Shown piece after piece: positions 1,775 through 5,514 of a stretch of 64,000 bases of DNA. This stretch comes from Hyphomicrobiales bacterium. Lineage in GTDB: Bacteria; Pseudomonadota; Alphaproteobacteria; Rhizobiales; Rhizobiaceae. The notes beneath the pieces were generated by a model. That model was not told the DNA's origin. It saw only the letters and a program-made list of their open reading frames with translations, and ran no database searches. A program made the translations under genes and the position numbers. How positions within the stretch are numbered: position 1 is the first letter of the stretch; each line of letters begins with the position of its first letter. The stretch is from NCBI GenBank assembly GCA_900471815.1, contig UICE01000003.1, positions 581,558 through 645,557 on the forward strand. Reading direction: 5' to 3'.

Positions 1775-2872
1775 ATGTATGTTGCTGTTAAAGGCGGCGA
1801 AGCCGCCATTCGCAATGCGCACAAGCTTCTGGCAGACCGCCGCCGTGGTGATCGCTCCGTTCCGGCTATCGGCCTCGATCAGATTGTTGAACAGCTGGCG
1901 CTCGCAGTTGATCGTGTGATGGCTGAAGGTTCGCTCTACGATACCGAGCTTGCTGCGCTCGCTGTGAAACAGGCTCGCGGCGATATGATTGAGGCGATTT
2001 TCCTCGTTCGGGCTTACCGGACGACCTTGCCGCGTTTCGGCTATACAAAGCCGGTCGAGACATCGCAGATGGCTATTGAACGCCGCATTTCCGCAACATT
2101 CAAGGATCTGCCAGGCGGTCAATTGCTGGGTCCGACCTTCGATTATACGCACCGCTTGCTCGATCCTGAACTTGCGGAAGATGGGTCAGTTGATCTGCCG
2201 GATCAACGCATCGAGGCCCATGAACATATGCCGCGTGTGACCGATATTCTCGGCCATGACGGCATGATCGAAGCTGATGGTGATATGCCTGAGGGAGCTC
2301 AAACGGGCGATTTGACCCGCGAGCCTTTGACCTTTCCGCTTGAGCGGGATTTGCGATTGCAGGCTCTGGCGCGCGGCGATGAGGGTTTTCTGCTGGGCTT
2401 GGCCTATTCCACCCAGCGCGGCTACGCGCGTAGCCATCCTTTTGCCGGTGAAATTCGCATTGGTGAGGTTGAAGTGGAACTCGAAGTCGCCGAACTTGAT
2501 TTTCCACTAACGCTTGGCCGCATTCGTCTTACCGAATGCCAGATGGTCAATCAGTTCAAAGGATCATCTAAGCAGCCGCCCCAATTCACGCGTGGCTACG
2601 GGCTTGTTTTCGGCCAAAGCGAGCGCAAGTCCATGTCCATGGCTCTTTGCGACCGCGCATTGCGGGCAAGAGAGCTGGGAGAGGACATTACCGCTGCGGC
2701 GCAGGACGAAGAATTCGTCATCTCACACAGCGATAATGTTCAGTCGACCGGCTTCGTCGAGCATCTGAAATTACCGCATTATGTGGATTTCCAAGCGGAA
2801 CTCGAGCTCGTGCGCCGTATGCGTAGTGGACATGAAAGCCAAAAGAACGAAATCAGTGAGGCTGCAGAATGA
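1775..2872 (+). CDS. phnI: C-P lyase subunit PhnI
   Basis: Catalytic subunit with nucleosidase activity that, with PhnG, PhnH and PhnL, displaces adenine from ATP by a phosphonate. The 365 residues match the usual length (about 350-370). The family region with PRVTDILGHDGMIE and FPLERDLRLQALARGDEG is present in the middle. GGAGG (1762-1766) precedes ATG at 1775. In most C-P lyase operons phnJ follows phnI at once; here the stop is followed by a 274-base gap holding a small antisense gene. GAGG at 2858-2861 and ATGA at 2869-2872 look like the ancestral phnJ translation signal. Confidence 0.95.
   Translation: MYVAVKGGEAAIRNAHKLLADRRRGDRSVPAIGLDQIVEQLALAVDRVMAEGSLYDTELAALAVKQARGDMIEAIFLVRAYRTTLPRFGYTKPVETSQMAIERRISATFKDLPGGQLLGPTFDYTHRLLDPELAEDGSVDLPDQRIEAHEHMPRVTDILGHDGMIEADGDMPEGAQTGDLTREPLTFPLERDLRLQALARGDEGFLLGLAYSTQRGYARSHPFAGEIRIGEVEVELEVAELDFPLTLGRIRLTECQMVNQFKGSSKQPPQFTRGYGLVFGQSERKSMSMALCDRALRARELGEDITAAAQDEEFVISHSDNVQSTGFVEHLKLPHYVDFQAELELVRRMRSGHESQKNEISEAAE
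2857..2872 (+). repeat. Left copy of short direct repeat bounding the phnI-phnJ insert
   Basis: TGAGGCT at 2857-2863, then AATGA at 2868-2872. The same two blocks recur in the same order at 3132-3138 and 3146-3150, with three more bases between them in the right copy. The left copy carries the phnI stop. The pair looks like a duplicated Shine-Dalgarno/stop-start junction left by insertion of about 278 bp. Chance resemblance of two translation signals is possible because both blocks are functional elements. Confidence 0.5.
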
Positions 2873-3150
2873 ACTTAGTCGCCACCGCCTCCATCACCTC
2901 CGCCATCGGAGTCGCCCCAGCTGTCGCTGCTGCCGGAAACACCAGTGTCGCCGCTATCGTTATTCAATTTTTTTCGGTTCTTGTTGCGCTGCTCGATTGC
3001 GGCAAGCGCTACGATGAAAACAAAAACACCAGTAAAAAGATAAAACTCAATATCTCCCGTCATGCATCCCTACGTTTTGCAGTTCAAACCAAAGGATCAA
3101 AATTCCGTGGTTTTGCGCAAACCAACTCCTTTGAGGCTATGACAAAATGA
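2869..3150 (+). CDS. Possible bridging ORF between phnI and phnJ (93 aa, doubtful)
   Basis: A sense-strand frame starts in ATGA overlapping the phnI stop, has GAGG seven bases upstream, and ends in TGA overlapping the phnJ ATG. Ribosomes could therefore pass from phnI to phnJ by two reinitiation steps. The product has an Ala/Val-rich hydrophobic half (about residues 5-42) and a basic C-terminal half, with no family I recognise. It is almost fully antisense to the 62-residue gene, which has the more protein-like composition. The frame may be kept open only to preserve coupling, or by chance. Confidence 0.25.
   Translation: MNLVATASITSAIGVAPAVAAAGNTSVAAIVIQFFSVLVALLDCGKRYDENKNTSKKIKLNISRHASLRFAVQTKGSKFRGFAQTNSFEAMTK
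2875..3063 (-). CDS. Small membrane protein with Gly/Asp/Ser-rich tail, antisense inside the phn operon
   Basis: 62-residue protein with one hydrophobic segment (about residues 6-22, FYLFTGVFVFIVALAAI), then a basic stretch (EQRNKNRKK), then a tail made almost only of Ser, Gly and Asp ending GDGGGGD. This architecture is seen in small uncharacterised proteins of rhizobia and relatives. AGGGA lies four bases before the ATG. I see no clear promoter or terminator. It is encoded opposite to phnI and phnJ in the gap between them. The opposite strand is also open (see the 2869-3150 entry). Function unknown; the low-complexity tail might bind metal or face the periplasm. Confidence 0.6.
   Translation of the reverse strand: MTGDIEFYLFTGVFVFIVALAAIEQRNKNRKKLNNDSGDTGVSGSSDSWGDSDGGGDGGGGD
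3132..3150 (+). repeat. Right copy of short direct repeat bounding the phnI-phnJ insert
   Basis: TGAGGCT at 3132-3138 followed by AATGA at 3146-3150, repeating the order seen at 2857-2872. The ATG inside this copy is the phnJ start and the GAGG is its ribosome binding site, ten bases away. Confidence 0.5.
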
Positions 3151-4028
3151 CCGAGCTTGCCACCTACAATTTTGCTTATCTTGATGAGCAGACCAAGCGG
3201 ATGATCCGCCGGGCTATTCTCAAAGCCATTGCCATACCTGGATATCAGGTGCCGTTTGCCAGCCGCGAAATGCCCATGCCCTATGGGTGGGGTACTGGCG
3301 GCGTACAGGTAACGGCTGCGATCATCGGCCCGAAGGACACGCTGAAAGTAATCGATCAAGGCGCTGATGACACAACGAATGCGGTTTCAATTCGTGCCTT
3401 TTTTCAAAAGGTTGCCAATGTTCCGGTGACCACGAAGACCACAGAAGCAACAATTATCCAGACGCGCCATCGCATTCCGGAGACTGCGCTAGCAGCAGGT
3501 CAGACGCTCGTCTATCAGGTGCCAATCCCAGAGCCGTTGCGCTTTCTTGAGCCGCGTGAAACCGAAACGCGCAAAATGCATGCGCTGGAGGAATATGGGC
3601 TCATGCATGTGAAGCTTTACGAAGATATCGCTCGCCACGGCCATATTGCGACCACCTATGCCTATCCGGTGAAGGTCGAGGGGCGTTATGTGATGGACCC
3701 ATCTCCGACACCCAAATTCGACAATCCCAAGATGCATAACTCGCCAGCCTTGCAGCTTTTCGGTGCAGGGCGGGAGAAGCGGATTTATGCAATTCCTCCC
3801 TATACGCAGGTCGTCAGTCTCGATTTCGAAGATCATCCTTTCGAGATTCAGAAGTTTTCGCAGCCATGCGCTCTTTGTGGTGCCAAGGGCAGCTATCTCG
3901 ATGAAGTCATTCTCGACGATAAAGGAGGCAGCATGTTCGTCTGTTCCGACACGGATTTTTGTGAAGAACGGCAGGCCGCAGGGCATCGCGGTGAATTATC
4001 GGCACCACAGGCGGAGGCAGCAGAATGA
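3147..4028 (+). CDS. phnJ: C-P lyase PhnJ, radical SAM carbon-phosphorus bond cleaving subunit
   Basis: Cleaves the C-P bond of 5-phosphoribosyl-1-phosphonate, releasing the alkane and 5-phosphoribosyl 1,2-cyclic phosphate. All key residues occupy the E. coli positions: Gly32 (IPGYQVPF, glycyl radical site), Cys241 and Cys244 (PCALC) and Cys266 binding the 4Fe-4S cluster, and Cys272 (SDTDFC) as the thiyl radical residue. Length 293, normal. GAGG at 3133-3136 precedes ATG 3147. The stop overlaps the phnK start (ATGA at 4025-4028). It is separated from phnI by an insert, which is unusual for this pair. Confidence 0.97.
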   Translation: MTELATYNFAYLDEQTKRMIRRAILKAIAIPGYQVPFASREMPMPYGWGTGGVQVTAAIIGPKDTLKVIDQGADDTTNAVSIRAFFQKVANVPVTTKTTEATIIQTRHRIPETALAAGQTLVYQVPIPEPLRFLEPRETETRKMHALEEYGLMHVKLYEDIARHGHIATTYAYPVKVEGRYVMDPSPTPKFDNPKMHNSPALQLFGAGREKRIYAIPPYTQVVSLDFEDHPFEIQKFSQPCALCGAKGSYLDEVILDDKGGSMFVCSDTDFCEERQAAGHRGELSAPQAEAAE

Positions 4029-4801
4029 GCGATATACCACTCTTGAAGGTTGGGGCATTATCGAAATTTTACGGAAGCCGTATCGGCTGCAAGAATGTTT
4101 CGTTTGAGCTTTTTCCTGGCGAAGTGCTGGCCGTCGTTGGCGAATCCGGGTCCGGTAAAACCACATTGCTCAATTGTCTGGCTACGAGACTTGCGCCTTC
4201 TGCCGGCACGGTCGAGTACCGCATGCGCGACGGGCATTTCCGTGACCTCTACCGCATGGGCGAGGCAGAGCGGCGCCTGTTGATGCGCACTGACTGGGGC
4301 TTTGTTCATCAAAACCCCGCTGATGGCCTGAGGATGACCGTATCGGCAGGAGCAAATGTTGGCGAAAGGCTGATGGCCATTGGCGACCGTCATTATGGCA
4401 ATATCCGCGCTACTGCCACTGATTGGCTAGGCCGAGTTGAGATTGCAGGGGATCGTATTGATGACCAGCCACGCGACTTTTCCGGCGGTATGCGCCAGCG
4501 CCTGCAGATTGCACGCAATCTTGTTACCAATCCGCGTCTCGTTTTCATGGATGAACCGACGGGCGGACTGGACGTTTCGGTGCAGGCAAGGCTTCTTGAT
4601 CTGCTCCGCGGTCTTGTCAGCGATCTTGGCCTGGCAGCGATTGTCGTGACCCATGATCTGGCCGTAGCTCGTCTTCTCTCACATCGTATGATGGTGATGA
4701 AGGACGGTCACGTCGTGGAAACGGGCCTTACCGACCGCGTTCTGGACGATCCGCAGGCGCCATACACGCAGCTTCTTGTCTCCTCCATTCTACAGGTTTG
4801 A
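4025..4801 (+). CDS. phnK: PhnK, ABC-type ATPase of the C-P lyase complex
   Basis: 258-residue ABC nucleotide-binding protein that docks on the PhnGHIJ core; it is not a transporter ATPase. Walker A GESGSGKTT at about residues 39-47, signature FSGGMRQRLQIARNL near residue 155, Walker B LVFMDEPTGG and the H-loop VVTHD follow in order. Start ATG 4025 overlaps the phnJ stop, and its own stop (4799-4801) lies two bases before the phnL ATG, so the genes are coupled. The assignment rests on position between phnJ and phnL and on resemblance to oligopeptide-type ATPases, which is typical of PhnK. Confidence 0.95.
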   Translation: MSDIPLLKVGALSKFYGSRIGCKNVSFELFPGEVLAVVGESGSGKTTLLNCLATRLAPSAGTVEYRMRDGHFRDLYRMGEAERRLLMRTDWGFVHQNPADGLRMTVSAGANVGERLMAIGDRHYGNIRATATDWLGRVEIAGDRIDDQPRDFSGGMRQRLQIARNLVTNPRLVFMDEPTGGLDVSVQARLLDLLRGLVSDLGLAAIVVTHDLAVARLLSHRMMVMKDGHVVETGLTDRVLDDPQAPYTQLLVSSILQV

Positions 4802-4803
4802 CC

Positions 4804-5514
4804 ATGCCGACACCTCTCGTTGTTTCCGATGTTGCCAAGAGCTTCACCATGCATTTGCGTGACGGCATTTGCTTGCCGGTTGTGGCCAATGTTTCCTTCT
4901 CCATTAAAGCAGGGGAATGCGCCGTGCTGGGTGGTCCTTCCGGTGCGGGTAAAAGCTCGATTCTCAAGATGATCTATGGCAATTATGCTGCCGATACCGG
5001 CCAAATCATTGTGCCTTACCGGGACAGGTTGGTTGATGTTGCGGCGGCAGACGCGCGCACAATGCTTGGCATTCGACGCGATCTGATTGGCTATGTAAGC
5101 CAGTTTCTGCGCACTGTGCCGCGCGTTTCTGCCCTTGATGTTGTAGCTGAGCCATTAGTGGCACGCGGCATTGATCGCGATGAAGCGCGCGAAAAGGCAG
5201 CCGCTCTTCTCGCGGGGCTTAATTTGCCGGAACGGTTGTGGTCATTGCCGCCGGCGACATTTTCGGGTGGTGAGCAGCAGCGCGTTAATATCGCTCGGGG
5301 CTTTATCACGGATCATCCCATTTTGTTGCTTGATGAGCCTACTGCGTCACTCGATGCCAGAAACCGCGATGTGGTGGTTTCAATGATCCGCGACAAGAAA
5401 AATGCGGGCGTTGCCATGCTTGGCATCTTCCACGATGACGATGTGCGCGAAGCAGTCGCTGACAGGATTATCGATGTCACGGCGTTTTCGGCTCAAACCG
5501 GAGCGGCCGCATGA
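4804..5514 (+). CDS. phnL: PhnL, ABC-type ATPase of the C-P lyase pathway
   Basis: 236-residue ABC ATPase needed with PhnG, PhnH and PhnI to form ribosyl triphosphonate. Walker A GGPSGAGKSS at about residues 43-52, signature FSGGEQQRVNIARGF near 156, Walker B ILLLDEPTASLD. No membrane partner is encoded beside it, consistent with an enzymatic rather than transport role. ATG 4804 is chosen over TTG 4798, which lies inside the phnK end. The stop overlaps the next start (ATGA at 5511-5514). Confidence 0.94.
   Translation: MPTPLVVSDVAKSFTMHLRDGICLPVVANVSFSIKAGECAVLGGPSGAGKSSILKMIYGNYAADTGQIIVPYRDRLVDVAAADARTMLGIRRDLIGYVSQFLRTVPRVSALDVVAEPLVARGIDRDEAREKAAALLAGLNLPERLWSLPPATFSGGEQQRVNIARGFITDHPILLLDEPTASLDARNRDVVVSMIRDKKNAGVAMLGIFHDDDVREAVADRIIDVTAFSAQTGAAA

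Follow-up and report, generated by a model that had tools for sequence, protein, structure and literature searches.

A small antisense gene between phnI and phnJ in Phyllobacterium and the open sense frame that may relay ribosomes across it

The spacer that separates phnI from phnJ in the window, the 64,000-nt stretch of DNA analysed here, is probably a small antisense gene accommodated between two operon genes whose translation is coupled; the sense frame facing it, here called the relay ORF, would matter mainly by its openness. The genus of the window is Phyllobacterium, the Brucellaceae placement of the initial annotation being wrong, and the inserts found repeatedly at this junction among Rhizobiaceae and closely related bacteria comprise small antisense membrane genes, antisense toxin-antitoxin-like pairs and repeats.

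Architecture of the phnI-phnJ junction

PhnI and PhnJ are partners in one complex. Their genes lie at positions 1775-2872 (plus strand; PF05861, E 2.5e-164) and 3147-4028 (plus strand; PF06007, E 8.7e-150) of the window, and phnG (660-1160), phnH (1157-1771), phnK (4025-4801) and phnL (4798-5514) were named by gene order in comparison with an annotated Shinella record. Each of these phn genes overlaps its neighbours or lies within a few bases of them, with the sole exception of phnI-phnJ, where the ATG-to-ATG distance across the spacer is 278 and the pair is 278 bp wider than in its uninterrupted form. The TGA stop of phnI falls within a left ATGA (2869-2872) that also starts the relay ORF (2869-3150, plus strand; 93 codons plus stop), which runs from ATGA to ATGA and ends within the right ATGA (3147-3150) that starts phnJ. 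A GAGG box precedes both in a TGAGGCT...AATGA context, the left copy being TGAGGCTGCAGAATGA (2857-2872, plus strand) and the right copy TGAGGCTATGACAAAATGA (3132-3150, plus strand). Both translation junctions are thus kept, each as a 4-nt overlap and within the spacing usual for termination-reinitiation (overlap or about 20 nt or less), in agreement with the two-step coupling first proposed for this frame.

The small gene previously noticed on the other strand was recovered as a 62-aa minus-strand ORF (2875-3063), codon-aligned antisense to the relay, with an AGGGA box (3067-3071, minus strand) just upstream of its start codon. Its product carries a hydrophobic segment, a basic stretch and a Gly/Asp/Ser tail. 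Like the PF25184 YxzE-like putative bacteriocins, it is small, with a hydrophobic segment and a Gly-rich tail, but unlike members of that family it scores under the curated cut-off (35.6 bits, E 2e-8, against 40); of nine small minus-strand proteins of relatives, two match the same profile (23.6 and 15.1 bits), and composition is biased. A scan of positions 2700-3400 of the window returned no terminator-like or promoter-like site. In shuffles of the window locus alone, an open relay ending near the phnJ start arose with P = 0.068, and openness of the relay is significant only across relatives, not at this locus by itself.

Three known arrangements resemble this junction. In the available text of PMC10666635, a 4-nt overlap is the commonest coupled spacing and complex partners are over-represented among close pairs; both relay ends are such overlaps, although, unlike a single termination-reinitiation pair, two steps in series would cross the spacer. 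A sense FosX-like gene occupies the same junction in Shinella and Mesorhizobium and, in the annotated Shinella record, overlaps each of its neighbours by 4 nt, but that insert, unlike the relay, is a recognisable enzyme gene. Finally, an opposite-strand gene between genes of one operon, the operon being deduced here from gene order, is the arrangement of a noncontiguous operon, as in menE-menC-MW1733-ytkD of Staphylococcus aureus, where the mRNA facing the opposite-strand gene is called untranslated (PMC7154746, available sections). It is possible, if rather doubtful, that the phn spacer is regulatory in this manner, its antisense transcript pairing with phn mRNA to tune phnJ relative to phnI and the open frame being secondary. 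The architecture fits the definition published there, whereas the region facing the antisense gene at phnI-phnJ is, judged by sequence, an open and phase-locked frame, and inserts in which no gene is evident show the same behaviour at this junction.

Relay frames across related junctions

Junctions were surveyed from 248 loci (26 from a search of the genus, the best 80 from a genome collection, 22 more from a family search and the remaining 120 regions from the matches listed in the family search). After removal of one locus without both genes and 19 duplicates, 228 were kept, mostly from Rhizobiaceae, of which 175 had a gap of at most 60 nt and 53 a longer one, including two from Devosia (L120, L122). 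From each start codon overlapping the upstream stop, the frame was followed and scored as a pass when its stop ended -15 to +25 nt of the phnJ start, a range set after the first cases had been seen. A relay was present in 49 of the 53 spacers longer than 60 nt, against 12.1 expected from dinucleotide shuffles, with stops at +4 (27 spacers), +8 (6), -5 (5), -6 (3), +11 (3), +1 (3) and -1 (2). The misses (L215, L119, L153 and L053) had stops at -17, -23, -30 and -80, in no particular order. The spacers of L119, L215 and L250 are related and contain a tiny minus-strand membrane ORF; two of them have no relay, and these are possibly decaying cases. By tblastn, a sense FosX-like gene lies between phnI and phnJ in 28 of the 228 junctions (for example L387:1385-1804); at these loci the test begins at the stop of the FosX-like gene, and 5 of the 28 have a further spacer longer than 60 nt.

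Spacers of relatives reach about 800 nt and their contents are diverse. Antisense HicA/HicB-like pairs were found in the spacers of L261, L232, L259 and L142 and a ParE/HTH pair in L192; both L192 proteins score above the cut-off, and those of L261, the only HicA/HicB-like ones scored, reach 24.3 bits (HicA) and 26.5 bits (HicB) against a cut-off of 27 each. In all five loci both genes are codon-aligned and the relay spans them in 244-260 codons. Tandem small minus-strand genes (two in L228 and L125, three in L203) are likewise all codon-aligned and spanned by one relay, and the inserts of L120, L122 and L009/L011 look like repeats and contain no evident gene. Among Ensifer adhaerens plasmid records, five keep the relay, one of them with a spacer 27 nt shorter. 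The layout of the window also appears in the record of Casida A-T305, a derivative of the E. adhaerens laboratory strain Casida A, and in E. canadensis T173 an alignment shows phnI running into phnJ with a bare overlap.

A second set, mostly from other families, was assembled from a gene-order search (12 home-family loci excluded, 18 kept) and 80 of the places that this search listed without a locus, fetched in order of similarity with some passed over. Of its 98 loci 97 were usable, and 7 of the 12 spacers longer than 60 nt carried a relay (2.1 expected). Among the five misses, L313 is closed, and the frames of L339, L321, L320 and L302 continue into phnJ, so that the insert would be read as an N-terminal extension of PhnJ; these four are scored as misses in this strict figure. 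The second-set translations, which covered the sense strand, gave no sign of a small antisense membrane gene.

A different account of the open frames would make them a by-product, given that GC-rich DNA often leaves an antisense frame open when the two are codon-aligned, and that spacers of common descent may have inherited one phase. The chance of passing in shuffles is indeed up to 0.59 for a GC-rich spacer of ordinary length and up to 0.90 for the shortest, and when the 65 spacers of both sets were grouped by similarity into 17 clusters, the largest held 31, linked partly by Gly/Asp tails. Reduction to one spacer per cluster nevertheless left 13 of 17 passing when the lowest identifier was taken (4.87 expected, P 1.4e-7) and 15 of 17 with the highest. 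Clusters represented from the first set passed in 11 of 12 cases (4.38 expected, P 1.9e-6) and those from the second in 2 of 5 (0.47 expected, P 0.04, a weak result). Against a by-product stands also that the repeat-like inserts without a gene (L009, L011, L120 and L122) pass.

Position relative to the relay bears on the same question. In 40 spacers shorter than 600 nt with a hydrophobic minus-strand ORF, picked by hydrophobicity and tail and not by phase, the minus-strand gene was codon-aligned with the relay in 37, the other phases accounting for 2 and 1. Its left offsets vary, yet nearly all are multiples of three (6, 9, 12, 15, 21, 24, 27, 30, 36, 39 and 270 when aligned; 8 and 73 out of phase). 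To the right of the gene, flanks of at least 30 nt were open in the relay frame in 34 of 37 spacers (24.9 expected, P 1e-4 if independent) and in 52 of 74 cases in the other two frames. Minus-strand codons that would close the relay (TTA, CTA and TCA) numbered 2 among 521 Leu and Ser codons of 42 codon-aligned regions, where 18.2 were expected from phnI/phnJ usage, not the cargo's own; on the same basis, TTA or CTA made up 1 of 303 Leu codons (4.6 expected) and TCA 1 of 218 Ser codons (13.6 expected). This count left out L059, L119, L229 and L259 for phase, in L259 because another ORF was chosen there. The flanks beyond the gene and the scarcity of TCA, together with the varied offsets, make a by-product unlikely.

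Controls were drawn from crude ORF calls. Among 147 other co-directional ORF pairs lying 61-420 nt apart, 54 had an overlapping start and 9 of these passed, two of the nine being themselves phn junctions (phnJ-phnK of L055 and phnH-phnI of L070). In (+,-,+) triplets, 67 with an overlapping start fell into phases 0, 1 and 2 in 26, 15 and 26 cases and 5 of 159 were open through, a weak control, since antisense shadows of real genes were in some cases called as ORFs. Elsewhere in the phn operon, 7 of 8 phnJ-phnK spacers among 80 loci passed and the eighth (L117) reads in frame into phnK; at phnK-phnL, 25 spacers were found in 80 loci, with an overlapping start in 6, of which 4 keep the relay, and none in the other 19. 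As a separate observation, the phnJ-phnK inserts of L055, L056, L060, L080, L120, L122 and L123 have a frame open to the phnK start or just inside it, and several share repeat-like peptide motifs.

Distribution and mobility of the spacer

Within Phyllobacterium, 16 of 20 genomes (that of the window being one of the 20) have a bare 4-nt phnI-phnJ overlap, 15 as ATGA and one, L021, as GTGA, and these include L004, the nearest by PhnJ (97%). The uninterrupted junction in close relatives that the initial annotation had named as support for insertion is thus present, and the reading of the 278 bp as an insert is upheld; copies away from this junction, which it had named alongside, did not appear in the searches reported below. 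The remaining four genomes carry a minus-strand small gene (the window and L022) or a repeat (L009 and L011). A tree built from phnI and phnJ joins the window species with spacer-less L004 as its sister (support 100/100) and places L022 beside two other spacer-less species (93/91). Spacers thus come and go, and with ATGA at both ends a deletion could restore the bare overlap exactly. One Phyllobacterium genome, G008 (L017, L023, L025-L028), gave six PhnJ matches.

A recent arrival of mobile small-gene cargo that duplicated its target site, an origin raised in the initial annotation, might account for the spacer-less sister species, for inserts scattered on the tree and for the ATGA at both ends. 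The window gene, however, has a single copy in its own genome, where no second was found, and at E 0.01 its protein matched nothing in 19 other Phyllobacterium genomes or, by tblastn, in plasmids. Across 394 family genomes at E 0.001 it matched itself and two others, G097 (E 9.3e-5) and G399 (E 3.5e-4), both lying antisense just upstream of phnJ in spacers of another genus (L171 and L168). The small gene of L022, in the same genus, was missed by the window protein, so the search overlooks diverged members. Named Rhizobium, Ensifer and Mesorhizobium loci have similarly built minus-strand genes at this junction, so that either an old spacer has been lost time and again or spacers have been gained on several occasions. 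As for the repeats, the whole window contains two instances of TGAGGCT followed by 3 to 15 nt and ATGA, a number reached or exceeded in 13 of 100 shuffles and therefore within chance, and the right end of the L022 spacer reads GAGGTT, not TGAGGCT, leaving ATGA at both ends as the only element common with the window. A long target duplication was accordingly rejected on the shuffle counts and the right ends in relatives, and with detectable homologues confined to one junction a recent mobile insertion seems quite unlikely.

A repetitive origin applies to a different insert. The L009/L011 spacers are a palindromic element of about 275 bp that also provides a new phnJ start; it gave 42, 43, 45 and 19 matches in four genomes and 3 in that of the window (five searched), counts that include fragments and hits between the two arms, so that three Phyllobacterium genomes hold 42-45 matches each. 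This bears comparison with the mycobacterial MIRUs, which, in the available sections of PMC12548453, insert at start codons and contain an internal ORF coupled at -4 nt to the gene downstream. The window insert likewise occupies a stop/start junction and contains an ORF spaced at -4 nt from the gene that follows, but MIRUs are short, dispersed, multi-copy repeats, and the window insert is an antisense gene present as one copy in its own genome; among the spacers, only the L009/L011 element has that dispersed character. MIRUs, as far as that text describes them, appear to do with short repeats what the relay would do here.

Coding strand and the proposed relay

Substitutions in the minus-gene region, compared over 26 related and non-independent pairs, fell at sense codon positions 1, 2 and 3 in 693, 285 and 377 cases (1754 codons each). 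Most change thus falls at sense position 1, the wobble position of the minus strand, from which it is very likely that the minus-strand gene is real and coding; the same pattern indicates no conservation of the relay peptide at the protein level. In the right flank the counts were 60, 42 and 46 (310 each), with no sign of sense constraint. It is very improbable that the sense frame instead encodes a genuine small phn protein, with the minus-strand ORF as its shadow: the sense frames are of considerable length, open at overlapping starts and in many cases share Ala/Val-rich beginnings, but 693 of 1355 substitutions sit at the minus-strand wobble, the window sense protein has no Pfam match at E 0.01, the repeat-like inserts of L009, L120 and L122 yield unrelated sense peptides and some minus-strand cargoes are recognisable toxin-antitoxin-like genes. 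The substitution pattern and the absent Pfam match likewise led us to disfavour the sense ORF as a protein gene.

We infer instead that the antisense gene is bridged by translation. A ribosome finishing phnI would reinitiate at the overlapping ATGA, translate a throw-away peptide of 93 residues across the antisense gene, terminate within the phnJ ATGA and reinitiate on phnJ, keeping PhnJ made in step with PhnI. In the tested Escherichia coli and Haloferax volcanii pairs described in the available text of PMC10666635, reinitiation drops steeply with distance and is nearly gone by 20-38 nt, 38 nt (almost) abolishing it in E. coli. Because of this distance dependence, direct reinitiation over 278 nt is unlikely, and two 4-nt relay steps would solve the problem. 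Untranslated mRNA loads Rho (PMC12548453, available sections), so the relay may also prevent polarity, its translation covering the mRNA and limiting Rho-dependent termination. Opposite-strand cargo would then survive at the junction mostly in the phase whose antisense frame is without stops. Open-licence literature, in the text available, yielded no report joining MIRU-type coupling with a noncontiguous operon or describing the phnI-phnJ junction, and the words phn, antisense and relay do not occur in the available sections of PMC6728339.

Implications

The bridging of an antisense gene by a translated frame would suggest how such a gene can sit within an operon without cutting off the genes downstream. 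A broader rule, whose chances we judge to be about even, would be that antisense genes, including toxin-antitoxin pairs, persist in a coupled operon only in the phase that leaves a relay, with antisense Leu and Ser codons that close it purged, and that the relay serves to carry ribosomes across and to prevent polarity, not to encode a protein. Such a rule predicts the allowed phase of antisense genes nested in operons and cautions against annotating every long open frame as a protein gene, since some may be bridges. Ultimately, the junctions of these bacteria provide naturally replicated tests of a question for which reporters are the usual tool, namely how strongly selection favours continuous translation along an operon.
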